DNA from: Methanomassiliicoccaceae archaeon | Lineage (GTDB): Archaea; Thermoplasmatota; Thermoplasmata; Methanomassiliicoccales; Methanomethylophilaceae | Direction of reading: 5' to 3' | DNA length: 36,695 nt | NCBI GenBank assembly: GCA_016281925.1 | Contig: JAEEJP010000012.1 | Span: 1-36,695 of the forward strand | Part shown: positions 5,703 through 14,719 of the stretch, piece by piece | How positions within the stretch are numbered: position 1 is the stretch's first letter | How the letters are laid out: the number at the start of each line of letters is the position of its first letter | Notes under the pieces: model-generated | What the model was told of the DNA's origin: nothing | The model's database searches: none | What the model saw: only the letters and a program-made list of their open reading frames with translations | Program-made: the position numbers and the translations under genes

Positions 5703-6116
5703 TCAGCCCTTCTTTTCCGATATCGATTCTATCACATCATTATATCTTTTCATGACAAATACGGCATTGTTGATCATTATTTTGAGATCCTCCGGCTTCT
5801 TCAGGAATTTCGCCGGGAATGTCACCTGGAATGTCGGCATCAAACTGCCGTCTACAGTCTTGATCTCGAATCTGCCGCAATACAGATTCTTGGATTTGTC
5901 GAAGAGAACGGCGCTGGCTCTGTCGATGGACTCTTCGGATATCACGCGGCTGAAATTGAAAGCGGCCACTTCTATGTATGACTGATATACGGTCACCAAA
6001 CAGGGGACATTTCTGGAACGGGTCATCAGAACATAATCGTTGCCCGCGGCACTGTATTCCAGATCCAGCTTTTTCAGCTGCTTCTTGGTTCTCTTCAGCA
6101 GTTCGCTTTTCTTCAT
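5703..6116 (-). CDS. Small hypothetical protein, possibly YbjN/chaperone-like fold
   Basis: 137 residues, not confidently recognised. It opens with a basic helix (MKKSELLKRTKKQLKK), continues with a run of strands (DYVLMTRSRNVPCLVTVYQSYIEVAAFNF) and ends with helices. This pattern loosely recalls YbjN-like or type-III-chaperone-like small alpha/beta proteins. It has no signal peptide or membrane segment and is probably cytoplasmic. The start at 6116 is supported by a GGAGGGAGG Shine-Dalgarno. It stands alone between the ligase and the MATE gene on the same strand, with spacers over 130 bases on each side, so it is probably its own transcription unit. Confidence 0.75.
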   Translation of the reverse strand: MKKSELLKRTKKQLKKLDLEYSAAGNDYVLMTRSRNVPCLVTVYQSYIEVAAFNFSRVISEESIDRASAVLFDKSKNLYCGRFEIKTVDGSLMPTFQVTFPAKFLKKPEDLKIMINNAVFVMKRYNDVIESISEKKG

Positions 6117-6321: not shown

Positions 6322-7680
6322 TCATGACAGAACCTTTCCAGGCCCCAAATATCCGTACATCCCGCCCAATCTAAGGATGAAAGCGACGGATACGCAGGCA
6401 GTCAGGAATTCGGTCAGAGGCAGGGCAAACCAGATGGCATCGATTCCGAACGCTTCGGGGAGCAGCAGAATCAGCGGGACGAGAAGCACGACAGAACGTA
6501 TGACCGATATGGCTGCGGAGACCCGTCCATTGGACAGCGACGTGAACAGCGAGGACGCGTATACATTGACGCACATGAACAGGAATCCTATCGAATATAT
6601 CGCCGCGCCTGAGACCATTATGTCCGTCACGGACGAGTCCCCGGCGAAGAACTCCGCTATATTCGAGGCGAATATCTCCATTATAGCGAAAGTGACCACG
6701 GAAAGGCAGCCGATGAATGCCATGGATATGCGGAACAGCTCCCCCATGGCCGGACGGTCCCCTTTGCCGTAATCGTATGACATCACAGGCGCCACCCCGT
6801 TGGAATAGCCTATGGCGGCCGCCAGAGCGAGGAAATGCGCGTATGACACGATGGTGATCGCGGAAACCCCGTCCGGCCCCATATAACGCATCATCACGGT
6901 GTTGTAGCAGAGCACCACCAGGCCTCCCGCCAGCTCGCTGGCCATCTCGGACATGCCGTTGGAGCACACGGAAACGATCACCGAGGGGTCTCTGGAAGGG
7001 GAAGAGAAACGGAGGGACATCCTGCCGCGGAAGAACAGTGCGATGCATACCAGAGACGGTACGGCCGACCCTATCCCGCTGGCTATGGCAGCACCGGTCA
7101 GACCCATGCCAAACACGCATATGAAAAGCCAGTCCAGGACGAGGTTGGTCAGCCCGCCGGCCACGGAAAGCGCGAATGACATCCCCGGCCTTTCCGCCAC
7201 TATCAGGAACTGTATCAGGACGAACTGGAGGAACACGAACGGCGCGAACGCTATGTATGCGCGGCCGTATTCCGCCGAGCCAGCTGACAGGGTCTCATCG
7301 GCGCCCATCAGCCCGACTAAGGGATCCATGAACGCAAATCCGAAGACGGCCAGCGCAGAAGAAATCAGAAGCGAAACCAGAGCTATCTCCGAGAAAGAGC
7401 GGTTCGCGCGCTCGGCCTCGCCTTTTCCCAGGAGATTGGCCACATAAGCGCTTCCACCCGTCGCGAACATGAAGCCCATCCCGGTGAGCAGAGAGGCAAG
7501 AGGCATCAGTATGTTGATGGATGCCAAAGCGTCGGTCCCGACGAAATTGGATACGAACGCGCCGTCGACCAGGCTGTAGGTCGAGATGAACATCATCATA
7601 GCAATCGAAGGGACGGCGAACTTCAGGGTCTTTGACCACCCTCTTATCTGTCCAAGCTCGCTTTCAGCGGTCTCGCCCAT
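6322..7680 (-). CDS. MATE-family multidrug/Na+ or H+ antiporter
   Basis: A 452-residue protein of the usual MATE length with about twelve hydrophobic helices in two homologous halves. The first half begins around residue 18 (KTLKFAVPSIAMMMFISTYS) with VDGAFVSNFVGTDALA, typical of MATE helix 1 and the loop after it, in the DinF/MepA-like branch. The second half starts near residue 235 (SNGMSEMASELAGGLVVLCYN). It probably exports cationic drugs or metabolites in exchange for Na+ or H+; the substrate cannot be read from sequence. The start at 7680 has a TATA box (AATATAAACG) about 25 bases ahead and no Shine-Dalgarno, suggesting a leaderless message. It is divergent from the small membrane protein at 7764. 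Confidence 0.93.
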   Translation of the reverse strand: MGETAESELGQIRGWSKTLKFAVPSIAMMMFISTYSLVDGAFVSNFVGTDALASINILMPLASLLTGMGFMFATGGSAYVANLLGKGEAERANRSFSEIALVSLLISSALAVFGFAFMDPLVGLMGADETLSAGSAEYGRAYIAFAPFVFLQFVLIQFLIVAERPGMSFALSVAGGLTNLVLDWLFICVFGMGLTGAAIASGIGSAVPSLVCIALFFRGRMSLRFSSPSRDPSVIVSVCSNGMSEMASELAGGLVVLCYNTVMMRYMGPDGVSAITIVSYAHFLALAAAIGYSNGVAPVMSYDYGKGDRPAMGELFRISMAFIGCLSVVTFAIMEIFASNIAEFFAGDSSVTDIMVSGAAIYSIGFLFMCVNVYASSLFTSLSNGRVSAAISVIRSVVLLVPLILLLPEAFGIDAIWFALPLTEFLTACVSVAFILRLGGMYGYLGPGKVLS

Positions 7681-7763: not shown

Positions 7764-7925
7764 ATGGATCAGACCTGGTATATGGTGGGCGTGGCCGTAG
7801 TCGTCGTAATAATGTGCATCGGCATCCTGGGGATGTACATCGGAAGGGGAAAGAGGAAAGCCCGCCGATCGCATCTGCCTGAGGCGGTTCCGAAGAAAGA
7901 AATGTGGGCCCCTCGGATAAGATAA
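7764..7925 (+). CDS. 53-residue single-pass membrane protein
   Basis: A short frame starting at the ATG at 7764. Residues 6-27 (YMVGVAVVVVIMCIGILGMY) form one strong transmembrane helix, followed by a basic cytoplasmic patch (GRGKRKARR) and about 20 polar residues. That topology suggests an N-out, C-in anchor. A TATA box 27 bases upstream supports independent expression. It ends at a TAA 26 bases ahead of the chelatase-like start. It belongs to no family I recognise. Small membrane proteins often sit beside transporters or exported systems, but no role can be assigned. Confidence 0.6.
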   Translation: MDQTWYMVGVAVVVVIMCIGILGMYIGRGKRKARRSHLPEAVPKKEMWAPRIR

Positions 7926-7951: not shown

Positions 7952-8725
7952 ATGGTCGAGAACAACAGGACGTACCTGACAGTCAGTTTCGGGGACGTCT
8001 CCGAGCCGATAGAGAGCGCGATTACGGAAAAGCATCCAAATTGCGAGGTCCGCAGGGCATTCACCAGCCGCATCGAGGCCAAGAAGATAGGGGCCGACCA
8101 TATCTCGGACGTCTTCCCTAAGCTCGCCGGCGAAGGCGTGACTCAGCTCACGGTCCAGCCTCTCCACGTGATCAACGGCACGGAATTCGAGATCGTAAAA
8201 GAGGAACTGACGAAGAATCTGGACCTTTTCCAGGACGTCCGCCTGGGCTCGCCGCTCCTGACCTCCGAGAGGGACTACCGCGCCGCCTGCAACGCCATCG
8301 TTAAGGACATAGTCCCCGAGGTGGAGGAATACATCGGCGAAGGCACGACCATCGTTCTCGTCGGCCGCGGATCCGACCATTACGCCAACTCCGCTTACTG
8401 CCAGCTGCAGGAGATGCTGAACCTTTCGGGAGAGGAGGATATCGTCCTCACCACCGTGGAAGGTTTCCCGTCCTATGCCGACACAGCCAAGAAACTGGCC
8501 AAGATGGGCGCGACCGACGTATCCGTGGTGCCGTTCATAGTGGCCTTGGGCGAGGAGGATTCCGAGGAGATAGCCGGGAAGGAGGAGATGTCCCTGAGGA
8601 TGATTCTCAAAGCCGAGGGCTTCAAAGTCAAATGCATCATGAAGAGCCTCGGGGAGCGCCCGGCATTCCAGAGGCTGTTCGCCGACCATGCCGACGCCGC
8701 CGCGATCCTCAAGAAAGAGCAGTGA
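7952..8725 (+). CDS. CbiK-like anaerobic chelatase homologue lacking both catalytic histidines
   Basis: 257 residues, close in length to Salmonella CbiK (264), the sirohydrochlorin cobaltochelatase of anaerobic B12 synthesis. The family signature is clear: YLTVSFG at 8-14, RRAFTSR at 34-40, LHVINGTEFE at 71-80, PLLTSERDY at 101-109, a GxGSxHxANSAY block at 138-149, and a gapless match around 192-216. Of the CbiK metal-site residues, the glutamate of NGxEY is kept (E78), but the GHG histidine (H145 in Salmonella) is R139 and the GDH histidine (H207) is E202. H143 nearby might compensate. Inserting Co2+ or Ni2+ in the usual way seems unlikely; it may bind a tetrapyrrole without chelatase activity. 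A terminator separates it from the nitrogenase-like operon 140 bases downstream. Confidence 0.85.
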   Translation: MVENNRTYLTVSFGDVSEPIESAITEKHPNCEVRRAFTSRIEAKKIGADHISDVFPKLAGEGVTQLTVQPLHVINGTEFEIVKEELTKNLDLFQDVRLGSPLLTSERDYRAACNAIVKDIVPEVEEYIGEGTTIVLVGRGSDHYANSAYCQLQEMLNLSGEEDIVLTTVEGFPSYADTAKKLAKMGATDVSVVPFIVALGEEDSEEIAGKEEMSLRMILKAEGFKVKCIMKSLGERPAFQRLFADHADAAAILKKEQ

Positions 8726-8763: not shown

Positions 8764-8837
8764 AAAGAAACCATCTTTCTTTTTCTGATGGCCGATGCGA
8801 TTGCCTGATCTGTCTCTCCGATTATTAAGCGATATTG

Positions 8838-8846
8838 GATTATACG
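8838..8846 (+). promoter_or_regulatory. Putative TATA box of the nitrogenase-like operon
   Basis: GATTATACG lies about 20-28 bases before the ATG at 8866. There is no Shine-Dalgarno, so a leaderless operon transcript is plausible. The match to an archaeal TATA consensus is modest. Confidence 0.35.
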
Positions 8847-8865
8847 TCCATTGAGATTAGCCCGC

Positions 8866-10959
8866 ATGTATCGCATCGCATTCTACGGAAAAGGCGGCAT
8901 CGGCAAATCCACCATTTCCGCCAACGTCTCTTATCTCCTGTCGCTGGACGGGAGCACGGTTCTGCATGTGGGATGCGATCCCAAACACGATTCCACAAGG
9001 CTCCTGACGCACGGCAGAAACATCAGGACGTTCTCTTCGGACACTTCGGCGGACCCCATATGCGAAGGCCTCAACGGGATACGCTGCGCGGAATGCGGAG
9101 GCGCTGAGCCGGGAAAAGGATGCGCCGGAAAGGGGATGGAGCTCCTGTTCGACAGGATATCCGGGGAGAACGCCGATTACAGGGTGTGCGACGTCCTCGG
9201 CGACGTTGTTTGCGGCGGATTCTCCGTCCCTGCGAGGGCTGAGAACTGCGATTCCGTCATAATAGTGACGTCCGGGGAGTTCATGTCGCTGTTCGCGGCG
9301 AACAACATCCTCCGCGGGCTCAGGAACATCAACCCGGGAAAGTCGGTGATGGGCATCGCGTTCAACCGCAGAGGAGAGGAGAACGAAGATGCCCAAGTAA
9401 GAAGATTCGCGGATGCCGTCGGCCTGCCGATACTGTGCGATATCCCCCGCTCCAGACTTTTCGCCGAATCCGAGATCTCCGGGGAGGTGCTTTCCAAGTC
9501 GTTCCCCGATTCCCCTGAGACCGGAATCCTCCGCGCGCTGGCCGATGCCATCAGAAGCCGCCCTGAACGCCATCTCCCTAGGCCGCTGTCCGAGAAAGCC
9601 ATGTCAGATCTGGCCGCTGGAAGGCCGATAACCGCGGGCGATGAGGCCGGCAGAAGATCGGACTGCTGCTTCGAAGGGTATGACGCCGAAAGGAACATCA
9701 CATACGTGGGCGAATTCGCCATGCCCGCATGCACTTCGCACGGGGCCGCCGACGGCATAATGAGGATAAAAGACGCCGCCGCGGTGCTTCATGGCCCCAG
9801 GAACTGCGCGTACCTCATGGAGTTCGCCTTCCGGCGCAGAGTGATCAACGGAGCGATGGAACGCGGCGATTATCCGGGATCCCCGGGGATATACAGCACC
9901 GGGCTGGATGCCGACAAAGCTTTCAGGGATCCGGAGGGAATAATCGAAGATACCGTGCTCAGAGCCGCTTCCGACGGATACAGGCACATATTCCTGGTCC
10001 CCACCTGCACATCGGAGATCATGGGCGCCGACCTCACGAAAGAGGCCGGGAAACTTTCGGAGAAGCATTCCCTCGATGTTGCAGCGGTGAATCCGGACGG
10101 ATCTTTCCTATCCAGCAAGTTCGGGGGCACCTTCGGCCTTATGGACGCCCTGATATCACGCATGAAACCCCGGGAAACCGAGAAAGGAACCGTCAACCTC
10201 ATCGCAAGGTGGTTCTACGGCTTAGGCAGAGACAGGAATCTGGCTTCCATCCAGAAGGTCCTGTCGCTGCTGGGCCTGAAAATCAGATTCGGCTTCCTGG
10301 ACTTCGCCACCATGGCGGAGATCGAGGATTTCTGCTCCGCCGAATACGACATACAGATCGGCCGCGCCAAACTCAATTCCCGCATCGGGGAGAGGATCTC
10401 GGAGGCGACAGGAAGAAGGATCCCTCTGGATCTGGATGTGCCTGTAGGATTGAGCGGCTGCCTGGAGTGGGTTGACGCCCTCTCCGAATATGCTCCGGAG
10501 CTCGCCCCGATGGCGGAATCCGCGAAGGATTCGCTGAGAGCCGAATTCGAATCCATCGTGGGGAAGTACGGGCAGAAGATCCGCGGCAAAAAGGTGGCCA
10601 TCTATTGCGAGATGGTGCGGGACCTGAAATGGCAGGTGGATACGCTCAGGGCCCTCGGCGCCGACATAAGGGCGGTGCTGTTCTCGGACGGGCCGGTGAT
10701 AGACCACAACGTCCGCATCCCGGATTACGGCGGGATAAGGACGGAAAGCGGGAAGAATCTGTGCGACCTCAGAAAGCTGGCCGACGAAGACAGCATAGAT
10801 CTGGTGGTGACGAACGATTCGGACCGGGTCCGCCGCCAGGGATTCAGATATGCCCCGCTGGGATCGAGATATTATGGCCTGGACGGCGTGGAGGATTGGA
10901 CGGCTTCCCTGGCCGACAGCCTCGATTCCCCCATCCCTTCATGGGAGGGAGGGCTATGA
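8866..10959 (+). CDS. NifH-NifD fusion: nitrogenase-like reductase and catalytic-subunit-like protein
   Basis: 697 residues joining two normally separate subunits. Residues 1-255 are NifH/BchL/CfbC-like: P-loop GKGGIGKS at 8-15, GCDPKHDST at 36-44, and cluster cysteines C86 (GCAGKG) and C116 (GDVVCGGF), which equal NifH C97 and C132. The ADP-ribosylated arginine of CAGRG is lysine. After a linker (about 256-285), residues 286-697 are NifD/BchN/CfbD-like, with three cysteines at the P-cluster or [4Fe-4S] positions: C289 (PACTSHG), C314 (GPRNCAY) and C381 (PTCTSEIMGADL). I see no equivalent of the NifD FeMo-co ligands C275 or H442. The ATG at 8866 is preferred over an upstream TTG because it matches NifH N-termini. 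The partner gene overlaps by ATGA. An ATP-driven two-electron reductase is likely, but the substrate is unknown. Confidence 0.9.
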   Translation: MYRIAFYGKGGIGKSTISANVSYLLSLDGSTVLHVGCDPKHDSTRLLTHGRNIRTFSSDTSADPICEGLNGIRCAECGGAEPGKGCAGKGMELLFDRISGENADYRVCDVLGDVVCGGFSVPARAENCDSVIIVTSGEFMSLFAANNILRGLRNINPGKSVMGIAFNRRGEENEDAQVRRFADAVGLPILCDIPRSRLFAESEISGEVLSKSFPDSPETGILRALADAIRSRPERHLPRPLSEKAMSDLAAGRPITAGDEAGRRSDCCFEGYDAERNITYVGEFAMPACTSHGAADGIMRIKDAAAVLHGPRNCAYLMEFAFRRRVINGAMERGDYPGSPGIYSTGLDADKAFRDPEGIIEDTVLRAASDGYRHIFLVPTCTSEIMGADLTKEAGKLSEKHSLDVAAVNPDGSFLSSKFGGTFGLMDALISRMKPRETEKGTVNLIARWFYGLGRDRNLASIQKVLSLLGLKIRFGFLDFATMAEIEDFCSAEYDIQIGRAKLNSRIGERISEATGRRIPLDLDVPVGLSGCLEWVDALSEYAPELAPMAESAKDSLRAEFESIVGKYGQKIRGKKVAIYCEMVRDLKWQVDTLRALGADIRAVLFSDGPVIDHNVRIPDYGGIRTESGKNLCDLRKLADEDSIDLVVTNDSDRVRRQGFRYAPLGSRYYGLDGVEDWTASLADSLDSPIPSWEGGL

Positions 10960-12254
10960 ACTGCCGGCCGGACGGAATGATGGGCGCCATAATCGCGTCG
11001 GAATCGCTCGGTCTCACGGACACTCTGATCAACGGGGCCGGCGGATGCCGCTCGAGAGCCCAGATAATGATGCACGACCTGATTCCGGAATACTATCCGG
11101 AGAACAGGGCATGCTCCAGATCGAAATACTTCAGCAGGCAGTCCCGCCTTCCATGCACCTATCTCGGCAACGACGACATCGTTTTCGGGGCTTCCGCCAA
11201 GGTATCTGGCGGGATAGAATCGGTATCATCCATCACCGGCAGGAAAGCCGTGCTCCTGGATACGCTGGGCGCCTCCCTTATATGCACGGATTATTCTGGC
11301 CTGACAGGCTCGGCCGGGAAAGATCCCATAATTCTGGACGGGGATCTGTCGGGGATGACCATGCCGGAAGGTTACGATGCGGCGACATCCGCGATCCTAT
11401 CCTCCGCTGAAATCGGGGACAAAGGAAACGGCGGGGTCAACATCCTCGGATACGGCCTGATGGATCTGGGCTGGCAGACCGGTGCCGAAGAGATCCGCCG
11501 CCTGCTGGAGCCGATGGGGGCCGGGGTCAATTGCATCCTGGGCTGCATTCCCGGCAAGGAATCGCTGATGGGATGCGGCGGAGCGGAGCTGAACGTCATG
11601 ATCCACCCGGAATACTGCCGCCGCACCGCCGAGATGATGCGCTCAAGGTTCGGGATCCCGTTCCTGAGACCTTCTGAAGGCTCACCAGTGGGATATCCTG
11701 CGTCCAGAGCTTTCGTCAAGGAAGTCGCGGACGCCCTCGGCCTGGATTCCTCTCCTTCGCTGGATCTCATCGACCGCGACGCGGAAGCCGTCCATAGGGT
11801 TCTGATGAATTATGAGAGGATCCCGAGGTCCCTGCATTCGGAAGGCCTGTCCGTGGAAGGAGATTCCTCGACGGTCTATCCCCTTGCGAAATGGATTTCG
11901 GGGCTGTTCGGAATGGTCCCCAGGATTATGCGCCCCCATGACGGAGAATATCTGCCGGAGATACGCTCGTATCTGGAGTCGAACGGATTCGGAAGCGCCC
12001 TGGAAGGCTCCGAAGGGAACATCGAGGCCTATTTCACGGACGGGCTGGCCGCTCTAGAAGGGAATCTGTCCAGATCCACTGCGGCCTACGTCGAGATATC
12101 CATGCCGAGAGGGAGGCCCCTCGATCTCATGGGCAGGACCCTGATCGGGACTGAAGGCTGCAGATACCTTCTCGACAGCCTGATGAACGGGCTGAGAAGG
12201 TTCAGGTGCGGCCAGCCGGAAGAAATTGAGTACCGCCCAGGCCAAAGCGTATAA
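10956..12254 (+). CDS. NifK/NifE/BchB-like component-1 partner of the NifH-D fusion
   Basis: 432 residues of the nitrogenase component-1 family (NifK/NifE/NifN/BchB/BchZ). The start at 10956 overlaps the previous stop as ATGA and has a GGGAGGGA Shine-Dalgarno. C3 (CRPDGMMGA) aligns with NifK C70 (CQPLGA), and C31 in GAGGCRSRAQ with C95 in GPxGCVAY. LPCTYLGNDDIVFGAS at 66-80 matches the NifK SMTEDAAVFGG segment. The third NifK cysteine (C153, TTCMAEVIGDD) is replaced by leucine in LDTLGASLI, leaving only two of three ligands. NILGYGLMD near residue 165 begins the central Rossmann-like domain. It probably pairs with the D part of the fusion as a heterotetramer with a simple [4Fe-4S] cluster rather than a P-cluster. 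The substrate cannot be read from sequence. Confidence 0.85.
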   Translation: MNCRPDGMMGAIIASESLGLTDTLINGAGGCRSRAQIMMHDLIPEYYPENRACSRSKYFSRQSRLPCTYLGNDDIVFGASAKVSGGIESVSSITGRKAVLLDTLGASLICTDYSGLTGSAGKDPIILDGDLSGMTMPEGYDAATSAILSSAEIGDKGNGGVNILGYGLMDLGWQTGAEEIRRLLEPMGAGVNCILGCIPGKESLMGCGGAELNVMIHPEYCRRTAEMMRSRFGIPFLRPSEGSPVGYPASRAFVKEVADALGLDSSPSLDLIDRDAEAVHRVLMNYERIPRSLHSEGLSVEGDSSTVYPLAKWISGLFGMVPRIMRPHDGEYLPEIRSYLESNGFGSALEGSEGNIEAYFTDGLAALEGNLSRSTAAYVEISMPRGRPLDLMGRTLIGTEGCRYLLDSLMNGLRRFRCGQPEEIEYRPGQSV

Positions 12255-12277: not shown

Positions 12278-13897
12278 ATGTTCGGCGCGGAAAGAATAGG
12301 GACATGGATCAGGGCAGAGTTTGTCCTTTTTGTCTCTGTTCTTCTCGCTCTGATTTCGATGGCTTTCGTGCCGCCGTCGGCGGGTTATCTGGACTACATC
12401 GACGTCCCGATGCTCTGCATCCTGTTCTGCCTCATGGCATCCGTAGCCGGGATGTCCGAATGCGGAGTGTTCAAGGCAGCCGCGTCGTGGATGGTCGGAA
12501 AGACAGGCTCTGCCCGCAGGATCTGCCTGGCGCTGGTTGCCCTGCCTTTCTTCGCGTCGATGGCGATAACCAACGACGTCTCGCTGATAACCTTCGTCCC
12601 TCTGGCCGTCGCTGTCCTTTCCGGCATAGACAGAAAGGACATGATAGCCCCTGTCCTGGTGCTCCAGACCGTCGCGGCGAACCTGGGGTGCATGCTCACG
12701 CCCATCGGAAGCCCCCACAATCTGTTCGTCTGCTCGAAGTATTCCATAGGCTTCGGGGACATGGTCTCGGTGATGCTCCCATATCTGGCTATCGGCGGCG
12801 CGGCGCTGTTCGCATCATGCGCGATAATTTGCCGCGGGGAATCGCCGAAACCGGATTCCGGGGATCATAAAGCAGAGAACATGCCTCTGCTGACCGCTAT
12901 GGCAGCCGTGTTCGCACTCAGCGTGCTGGCGGTATCCGGGACCGTCCCCTACTGGGCGGCCCTCATATGCGCCGCCGCCGCAATGGCAGCGTTCAAGCCG
13001 TCCCTGTTCGGAAAAGTCGATTACAGCCTGCTGCTGACGTTCGTGTTCCTGTTCATATTCACCGGGAACCTTTCAGAGATGGAATCGGTGGCATCATTCC
13101 TGGGAGGGCTGATGGGATGGGATCCGATGCTGGTCCCGGCTCTTGCCAGCCAAGGCATCAGCAACGTGCCGGCCGCTGTCCTCCTCTCGAATTTCACCGA
13201 CGACTGGCAGAGCCTTCTTGTCGGTGTGAACGTGGGGGGGTTCGGGACCCCTATAGCTTCGATGGCGTCGCTGATAACGTTCAGGCTGTACGCGAAAGAA
13301 AAGGAGCATGACGAAAAAAGATTCGCCGGAATCTTCCTCCTGGCCAACGCCATAGCCTTCGCCCTTCTGGCCGCGGCTTATTACGCGATGGGATCGGCCG
13401 GATTCCGATCGCATCATCCCCGCATCGGGATCGGTATCCGTTGCGGTGGACTCTTTCGGGCTTGTATCTTCCGTCCTTGTGCTCCGGCCTCGTTCTGGGA
13501 TGCCCGACCGCGATCAGGCAGAACGGCTTCACGCTGTCAGGAAGGTTCAGAGCCTTCGATACGGCGTCCATCCTGTCCTGGTGGGGCGCGATCCCTATCC
13601 AGACGGTGCCTATGCCACGCGACGTGGCTGCCAGAAGGATGTTCTGGGTCGCAGCCGCGAGATCCTGCTGCCACATCATCGGCGTCTTCATCAGGCCGAT
13701 GTTCCCGAGGACGGCGATGGCCAGAGGGGCCCTGCCCACCGGGGATGCGTACGGAGCGGCATGGGACAGCTCCTCCAGCATCTTTATGTCGTCTACTATG
13801 CAGAATTCCCAGCACTGCTGGTTCATGGCGGACGGGGCTGCCATCGCGGCCCTCATCAGAAGATCCTGGTCCTCCATTTTTATGGGCTCACCGGTGA
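12278..13897 (+). CDS. ArsB/CitMHS-type anion permease with an out-of-frame C-terminal tail
   Basis: The genuine part is about 375 residues with ten or so membrane helices of the ion-transporter superfamily (CitMHS, ArsB, NhaD, SLC13). Diagnostic repeats are TNDVSLITFVPLAV near 91, TPIGSPHNLFV near 142, and the second-half SNVPAAVLLSNF ... GVNVGGFGTPIASMASLI near 290-330. The last helix (IFLLANAIAFALLAAAYYAMG) ends near 13390. Beyond that the frame continues for about 160 residues of Arg/Pro/Ser/Cys-rich sequence that is the antisense of the nitroreductase gene and is almost certainly not selected. It begins 23 bases after the NifK-like stop, so co-expression is likely and it could move the substrate or product of that enzyme. 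The transported anion is unknown. Confidence 0.8.
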   Translation: MFGAERIGTWIRAEFVLFVSVLLALISMAFVPPSAGYLDYIDVPMLCILFCLMASVAGMSECGVFKAAASWMVGKTGSARRICLALVALPFFASMAITNDVSLITFVPLAVAVLSGIDRKDMIAPVLVLQTVAANLGCMLTPIGSPHNLFVCSKYSIGFGDMVSVMLPYLAIGGAALFASCAIICRGESPKPDSGDHKAENMPLLTAMAAVFALSVLAVSGTVPYWAALICAAAAMAAFKPSLFGKVDYSLLLTFVFLFIFTGNLSEMESVASFLGGLMGWDPMLVPALASQGISNVPAAVLLSNFTDDWQSLLVGVNVGGFGTPIASMASLITFRLYAKEKEHDEKRFAGIFLLANAIAFALLAAAYYAMGSAGFRSHHPRIGIGIRCGGLFRACIFRPCAPASFWDARPRSGRTASRCQEGSEPSIRRPSCPGGARSLSRRCLCHATWLPEGCSGSQPRDPAATSSASSSGRCSRGRRWPEGPCPPGMRTERHGTAPPASLCRLLCRIPSTAGSWRTGLPSRPSSEDPGPPFLWAHR

Positions 13898-13940
13898 AAT
13901 CCCTCACGCTGACCCTGTCGAAAATCAGATTAGCGGTCAT
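13281..13940 (-). CDS. Nitroreductase-family FMN oxidoreductase with a 3' extension
   Basis: The conserved part, about 168 residues, is a typical small nitroreductase. It has RVSVRDFTGEPI at 9-20, APSAMNQQCWEF near 36-47 (FMN phosphate and isoalloxazine contacts), the helix DLAAATQNILLAATSRGIGTVWIG, and the ending RYKPERVHRN. FMN-dependent hydride transfer with NAD(P)H is expected; the substrate is undefined. After VHRNGY the frame runs another 50 residues through the convergent permease gene to a TGA at 13281, so the native stop seems to be lost. The ATG at 13940 overlaps the stop of the YqaJ-like gene as ATGA, indicating translational coupling. Confidence 0.85.
   Translation of the reverse strand: MTANLIFDRVSVRDFTGEPIKMEDQDLLMRAAMAAPSAMNQQCWEFCIVDDIKMLEELSHAAPYASPVGRAPLAIAVLGNIGLMKTPMMWQQDLAAATQNILLAATSRGIGTVWIGIAPHQDRMDAVSKALNLPDSVKPFCLIAVGHPRTRPEHKDGRYKPERVHRNGYRSRCGDDAIGIRPIPSRNKPRPEGRRLWRWPGGRFRRIFFRHAPFLSRTA
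13400..13439. terminator. Imperfect inverted repeat at the permease/nitroreductase junction
   Basis: GGATTCCGATC (13400-13410) pairs with GATCGGTATCC (13429-13439) with one mismatch across an 18-base loop. It lies where both coding regions should end, so it may be a remnant of a bidirectional terminator. There is no T-run on either side. Confidence 0.35.
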
Positions 13941-14719
13941 CTCTTCTTCCTCTTGAACGCTTTGAGATACTTCAGCACTTCCTGGTCGCATTCGGAATCC
14001 GTCCATTCCGGCGTGTATCCGTTCTTCATGTAGGTGCCGTACCACTCCTCGCACTTCGCCATGATGGGCCTCATGTCCAGCTTTTCCTTGACGATAACGA
14101 AGGTATTGTCCTCGTTCGGGACCCATTGCTTCGGGCGGTCATAATCGGATTCCTCCAGGAAACCTACGAGGAAGACGATCCTATCCAGGCCGGAAAGCTC
14201 GGCGTACAGGGACGCCTGATACATGTATTGCATCGGAACGTTGGTGTATCCTCCGCTTCCGTCCTCCCATTTCTCTCTCACGCCGGACGTTTTGATCTCG
14301 AGGATCGTATTCCTGACGTTGTCTATCCTGATGTATCCGTCCACGAGGCCGCCGAACAGCTTCTCGCCGTGGAAATGGTCGTATCCGCATTGCTCCATCG
14401 GGACAGGCTCCTCCACGGATGCGAATGATCCCTCAGGAATTCCGAGAGGACCCCTGAGCATGGCGTTCGCATGGGTCCCGAGATAATCCCTCAGCACCGG
14501 CTCGAGGATGTTCCCGGCATCGATGTATTTGGTCGGTTTGTCCCCGGGATAAAGGCCGGCAAGCTCGCAGGCGACCTTGAAAGGGGAAGAGAAATCGATT
14601 TCGCCCAGTATGGGCCCGATGCGCGTCCCGGTCATCTTCTTCAGTTTATAGGTATCGAAATACACCGTGCGCTCATCGTCGTCGATGTCTTCGATTCCCA
14701 TTCTTCCGTCATAAGCCAT
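13937..14719 (-). CDS. YqaJ/lambda-exonuclease-like PD-(D/E)XK nuclease
   Basis: About 260 residues from the ATG at 14719. Nuclease motifs occur in order: the glutamate of GNILEPVLRDY near 77, GGLVDGYI near 143 (motif D), LEIKTS near 160 (the ExK of PD-(D/E)XK) and the QYMYQASLYAELSG helix near 185. This order is that of YqaJ viral recombinase and lambda exonuclease, which degrade one DNA strand 5' to 3' for recombination. A helix before the catalytic core (YFDTYKLKKMTGTRIGPIL) resembles the YqaJ N-terminus. The frame is open upstream without a stop as far as a TAG at 14924, so it is in frame with the preceding methyltransferase. No other phage gene is nearby. The start is uncertain (14701 and 14788 are alternatives). 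Confidence 0.8.
   Translation of the reverse strand: MAYDGRMGIEDIDDDERTVYFDTYKLKKMTGTRIGPILGEIDFSSPFKVACELAGLYPGDKPTKYIDAGNILEPVLRDYLGTHANAMLRGPLGIPEGSFASVEEPVPMEQCGYDHFHGEKLFGGLVDGYIRIDNVRNTILEIKTSGVREKWEDGSGGYTNVPMQYMYQASLYAELSGLDRIVFLVGFLEESDYDRPKQWVPNEDNTFVIVKEKLDMRPIMAKCEEWYGTYMKNGYTPEWTDSECDQEVLKYLKAFKRKKR

Follow-up and report, generated by a model that had tools for sequence, protein, structure and literature searches.

Introduction

Class II chelatases keep their metal-binding histidine pair in one half of the protein, the C-terminal half in CbiK or the N-terminal half in SirB and CbiX-L, following the duplication of a small ancestor (PMC7689651). The active-site pair of CbiK, His145/His207, is confined to the C-terminal half (PMC7689651), and the empty second site of SirB holds Arg134 and Leu200 (PMC11301274), with Arg134 at a position matching a CfbA His9. 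Paracoccus CbiX is inactive in vivo once either His127 or His187 is replaced by alanine (PMC4063343), and the ferrochelatase HemH is still active with one histidine replaced by Glu (PMC7689651). P. gingivalis FetB (PDB 9b86) has the CbiK fold and is named a heme-binding protein rather than a chelatase. Among nitrogenase-like enzymes, CfbC/CfbD and DPOR (BchLNB) combine NifH with NifD/K-type domains and carry conserved Fe-S-type cysteines, and the characterized members include a C-S reductase (PMC12552129).

The stretch of DNA analyzed here, hereafter the window, comprises 36,695 nucleotides from a Methanomassiliicoccaceae archaeon. At positions 7952..8725 of its forward strand it encodes a CbiK-fold protein without the metal-binding histidines, which we call CbiKv, next to genes for a nitrogenase-like enzyme.

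A CbiK Family Member without Catalytic Histidines

CbiKv runs from an ATG at 7952 to a TGA at 8725 and is 257 amino acids long. It matches the PF06180 CbiK profile at 156.9 bits against a gathering cut-off of 26.2 (E 8e-46), and its phmmer matches are Salmonella CbiK (1qgo, E 2e-21), FetB (9b86, 4e-20), and D. vulgaris CbiKP (2xvx, 8e-18). The family motif GHG reads GRG and GDH reads GEE, both sites being free of gaps in the phmmer alignments to all three structures, and in an alignment of 52 homologues R139 and E202 fall in the columns of Salmonella His145 and His207. The original prediction of a CbiK-type protein that has lost its two catalytic histidines, with no gap at the GEE site, a CGC codon for R139, and nitrogenase-like genes alongside, thus holds. 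It had also considered an alignment shift that would place H143 at the metal site; this can be set aside, as both columns hold histidine in canonical CbiK, H143 corresponding to H149, a separately conserved residue across the whole family.

CbiKv resembles Salmonella CbiK (PDB 1qgo; PF06180) in family, length, many surrounding motifs, and the retained equivalents of Glu89 and Glu175 (E78 and E170 in the 52-homologue alignment), but differs from it in carrying Arg/Glu for His145/His207 and in two shortened loops, the one after SFGT by about 8 residues and the second by about 6 relative to canonical CbiK. The shortened loop beside the N-half site may mean that the tetrapyrrole pocket has itself been altered. 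SirB and CbiX-L are similar in that one half is without a histidine pair, yet they carry the pair in the N-terminal half, and a search for such a pair in the N-terminal half of CbiKv found none: the equivalent columns hold F13 (Tyr in its two orthologues) and E78, and His is absent from them in all three proteins. Phe/Tyr and Glu at these positions mean that neither half has a histidine pair. The column match between this half and SirB we take partly from the internal repeat and partly from what we assume of the fold. A model predicted from two sequences has a pLDDT of 53, too poor for distances, and its top Foldseek ranks are still FetB and CbiK.

By homology, then, CbiKv belongs to the CbiK family, but it is without the defining catalytic residues, and since these are missing the name cobaltochelatase should not be used. 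The equivalog profile for cobaltochelatase CbiK (NF047852) does not discriminate here: CbiKv scores 117.6 against a cut-off of 400 bits, but the canonical CbiK of the same genome also falls below, reaching just 250. Because alanine at either histidine kills a related chelatase (PMC4063343), loss of ordinary cobalt insertion in CbiKv is likely.

A Single Conserved Clade

Homologues were sought in 147 genomes of the order, and 51 of them cover both sites. Arg and Glu (R/E) occupy the two sites in just three of these 51, namely the window protein and those of G080 (MAG SIG7; loci L006/L070) and G092 (locus L071), and the carriers are three related gut-type methanogen genomes. All three members of the CbiKv group have R and E where 43/43 canonical homologues have two histidines (H/H). 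A profile of CbiKv searched across the phylum, in a sample without G092, drew high scores from the window and G080 copies alone. Two further paralogous CbiK groups retain the histidines and are without one or both glutamates. In a second divergent group, Gln stands at the Glu89 position and Ser/Thr at that of Glu175; its genes (L068 5904-7247, contig C68 of the window's own genome; L113 7283-8050; L114 7214-8020) have FecCD and ABC importer genes nearby in each of the three loci for which context is available.

The two other R/E proteins share 68% and 74% identity with that of the window. The three genomes share the codons CGC for R139 and GAG for E202, and loop 201-206, EEDSEE (in the block EEDSEEI), is identical in all. 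Three separate assemblies agree, which excludes chance or a sequencing or assembly error as the source of R/E. A pseudogene was likewise rejected, given frames open in all three, the common replacements and EEDSEE block, and a dN/dS within the clade of about 0.13-0.31, which indicates purifying selection, this ratio being approximate because dS is high.

The R/E proteins form one clade (support 100/100), so they do not represent three independent events. Its stem branch is long, at 1.68 changes per column, and many otherwise invariant sites are changed in it. The changes are clustered: all three R/E proteins depart from canonical CbiK at 19 of its conserved positions, and 10 of these lie at the first histidine or in loop 196-207, which holds the second-histidine site. 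The sister of the clade is a CbiK of G086 that has both histidines, with support of 84/90, or 94/89 once long branches are removed.

The Gene Neighborhood of CbiKv

About 140 bp 3' of the CbiKv stop begins a gene that we call NHD (8866..10959, +), a NifH-NifD fusion with a P-loop and conserved Fe-S cysteines, and after it NK (10956..12254, +), a NifK/BchB-like subunit. The ATG of NK overlaps the NHD stop (ATGA), and the two are therefore probably translationally coupled. The three R/E loci, like G084, all keep a CitMHS-type ion transporter downstream (12278..13897, +, in the window). A nitroreductase-family gene (13281..14126, -) and, upstream of CbiKv, a MATE-family exporter gene (6322..7680, -) are also kept in the three R/E loci, each as an association only. 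Directly upstream of CbiKv lies a small open reading frame (7764..7925, +) of 53 amino acids with one hydrophobic stretch (MDQTWYMVGVAVVVVIMCIGILGMYIGRGKRK...). It is present in 3/3 R/E genomes (L070 8226-8336, L071 14184-14291), at 35-53 amino acids and with a basic tail, and found no convincing match elsewhere in the loci examined.

The order CbiKv, NHD, NK, CitMHS is the same in G080, and in G092 a FecBCD importer stands between CbiKv and NHD. A degenerate copy of a repeat described below (TTGGATTATACGTCCAT, two mismatches; 8835..8851, +) overlaps the TATA-like box of the window's NHD, and no copy lies upstream of CbiKv. This difference, together with a T-rich stretch and a separate promoter-like box between the two genes, suggests that they are probably not one transcript. 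In G080 and G092 a methanogenesis-marker-8 gene (TIGR03275) is also close to CbiKv; that of G080 (L070 5548-6387) has an in-frame TAG at 6049-6051, a codon that members of this order may translate as pyrrolysine.

It had been proposed to survey whether homologues with R/E always neighbor NifHD-K genes. They do in these genomes, since all three R/E proteins have NHD-NK within 5 kb, but the neighborhood is not theirs alone, as 1/44 H/H proteins counted is also found there (hypergeometric p 2.5e-4, with the R/E proteins forming one clade). That exception is the CbiK of G086, the sole CbiK found in its genome, which stands in divergent orientation beside an NHD of a different clade. It may simply be that genome's cobaltochelatase, with the repeat in common. 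A homologue with both histidines in this context had been named beforehand as counting against the original reading, and in a narrow sense this one case is such a homologue. Its two histidines mean that the context does not require their loss, and this hints that CbiK may have entered the NHD-NK neighborhood with its histidines still present, association coming first and loss later. CbiKv is not an obligatory NHD-NK partner, as no CbiKv lies beside four closely related pairs (G073, G077, G084, and G096). CbiKv and the neighboring NHD share one branching order, (window,(G080,G092)).

Other Tetrapyrrole Genes of the Same Genome

CbiKv, unlike CbiK, is not near corrin genes, and the same genome carries a further CbiK, of canonical type, on contig C22, as well as corrin TP_methylases. 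Contig C20 carries an F430 cluster of cfbC, a fused CfbA-CfbA-CfbE frame, cfbD, and cfbB. The fused frame (L069 4301-6706, -), between cfbC and cfbD, joins two CfbA-like chelatase domains and CfbE in 802 amino acids. Given a canonical CbiK, CfbA, and the full F430 cluster in one genome, CbiKv represents a specialized extra copy. The separate cfb cluster likewise led us to reject NHD-NK as the F430 enzyme.

NHD-NK belongs to the nitrogenase superfamily (Fer4_NifH and Oxidored_nitro domains). Its likeness to CfbC/CfbD and DPOR extends to the cluster-type cysteines, which in NHD are conserved in aligned homologues at 83 and 113 of the NifH part and 286, 311, and 378 of the NifD part (numbering from base 8875). 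The NifH part scores best against CfbC, but NHD-NK differs from all of these in its NifH-NifD fusion, in scores far below every equivalog cut-off, and in residing in a genome that has its own CfbC and CfbD. Against NF033200 the NifH part reaches 224.8 of 402 bits, and the genome's own CfbC is also below that cut-off (327.7).

A Repeat Common to NHD-NK, FecBCD, and cbiK Genes

NHD homologues were found in 119 of the 147 genomes, a count that includes NifH-type genes alone, such as CfbC; NK accompanies NHD in 73/74 loci examined, and many genomes of the order have several copies of the pair. FecCD permease genes occur in 40/74 NHD loci vs 4/42 canonical CbiK loci, and nine of 10 NHD genes among the matches listed lie within 8 kb of FecCD, where rotation predicts 1.1 (five single-contig genomes, FecCD as listed). 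FecCD permease genes are themselves very many, with at least 7-31 per genome and at least 28 in that of the window. A fusion of a methyltransferase domain with an ArsR-type HTH also recurs beside NHD-NK and FecBCD, in 10/74 loci (e.g., L119 6137-7264).

An operator-like repeat, TTGGAT-N5-ATCCAA, overlaps the TATA-like box and is common to NHD-NK pairs, FecBCD importers, and many canonical cbiK genes. Defined post hoc, after looking at the same data, it precedes 42/75 NHD genes when up to two mismatches are allowed (control 1.4%) and lies within 250 bp upstream of 17/52 CbiK-family genes. Perfect copies number 2-19 per genome, where base composition would predict roughly 0.05, and 17/26 of them are by FecCD or NHD genes (null 1.6). 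G086 has the repeat upstream of CbiK, NHD, and a TP_methylase gene. The carriers, which include L072, L118, L121, L125, and others, make NHD, FecBCD operons, cbiK, and one TP_methylase gene a candidate regulon. A literature search for the repeat found no paper. A different palindrome upstream of the G080 NHD (TCACTATAGTGA) was dropped, as it is not common to other loci.

The repeat points to a link between the NHD-NK system and corrinoid or metal-chelate uptake. Together with the close FecBCD linkage, the shared repeat makes it probable that NHD-NK takes part in taking up and processing corrinoids or metal chelates. The existence of a C-S reductase among nitrogenase-like enzymes (PMC12552129) means that NHD-NK need not act on a tetrapyrrole.

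Possible Functions of CbiKv

The original reading of CbiKv, as a tetrapyrrole-binding or carrier protein or a chelatase for another metal, is supported in part, by the histidine loss, the NHD-NK linkage, and the canonical CbiK of the same genome. Tentatively, and with a confidence that falls somewhat short of even, we favor reading CbiKv from its sequence as a specialized CbiK paralogue that does not insert Co2+ in the usual manner and instead handles a tetrapyrrole or chelate near NHD-NK. CbiKv would keep the two-lobed cleft and bind in it a tetrapyrrole or related metal chelate; it could then serve the NHD-NK reductase as a carrier, a chaperone, or a partner that presents the substrate, within a wider system that probably acts in corrinoid or metal-chelate uptake and processing. 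In a putative geometry, the former metal position may be occupied by Arg139, paired either with Glu202 or with a carboxylate on the ligand ring. FetB offers a precedent for a CbiK fold in a binding protein, but it retains both histidines, and by eye CbiKv has no obvious signal peptide, unlike FetB.

Whether CbiKv belongs to the NHD-NK pathway at all can be disputed. It might work elsewhere, for instance in regulation or on another ligand together with the small membrane reading frame and MATE, with the linkage to NHD-NK due to a genomic island that one clade has inherited. NHD is matched in constancy by the MATE gene and the small frame upstream, CbiKv is without the shared repeat, an importer separates it from NHD in G092, and the three R/E genomes, as one clade, record one evolutionary event. 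Two observations count against such an island: the next relative, with its histidines, also lies beside an NHD-NK pair and itself has the repeat, and CbiKv agrees with its NHD in branching order. We consider a function outside the pathway rather unlikely.

A role in metal handling is also unlikely, by a slightly stricter judgment. Here CbiKv would be a chelatase or dechelatase for Fe2+ or another metal, with a carboxylate site composed of E78, E170, E202, and the EEDSEE loop. The kept Glu89/Glu175 equivalents and the identity of that loop in three sequences are consistent with this idea, as is the activity of HemH with Glu for one histidine (PMC7689651). However, the His-to-Ala data run in the opposite direction (PMC4063343), the first histidine has become Arg, a residue found at the non-catalytic SirB site (PMC11301274), and the cited literature holds no superfamily chelatase without histidines in both halves. 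A decaying or functionless paralogue left from a cbiK duplication, for which the long stem branch and the many changes at otherwise invariant sites might speak, is very improbable in view of the open frames, the low dN/dS, and replacements and an EEDSEE block that are the same in all.

Within the favored reading of CbiKv as a tetrapyrrole or chelate handler, a narrower version is doubtful: that CbiKv is a tetrapyrrole (possibly corrinoid) carrier feeding or draining a NifHD-K reductase that is co-regulated with FecBCD, the small membrane protein tying CbiKv to the membrane. If it were true, gut methanogens would take up metal-tetrapyrroles and process them reductively, a dead chelatase being the handling protein.

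Implications

Class II chelatases have been sorted by the half that keeps the histidine pair, and a conserved branch with the pair in neither half would give the same duplication a third outcome. The R/E branch is thus a natural test of what the chelatase fold can do without its metal ligands. More broadly, orphan enzymes built of NHD and a NifK-like subunit become testable, as their position and a shared repeat tie them to FecBCD and cbiK, pointing to corrinoid or metal-chelate chemistry.
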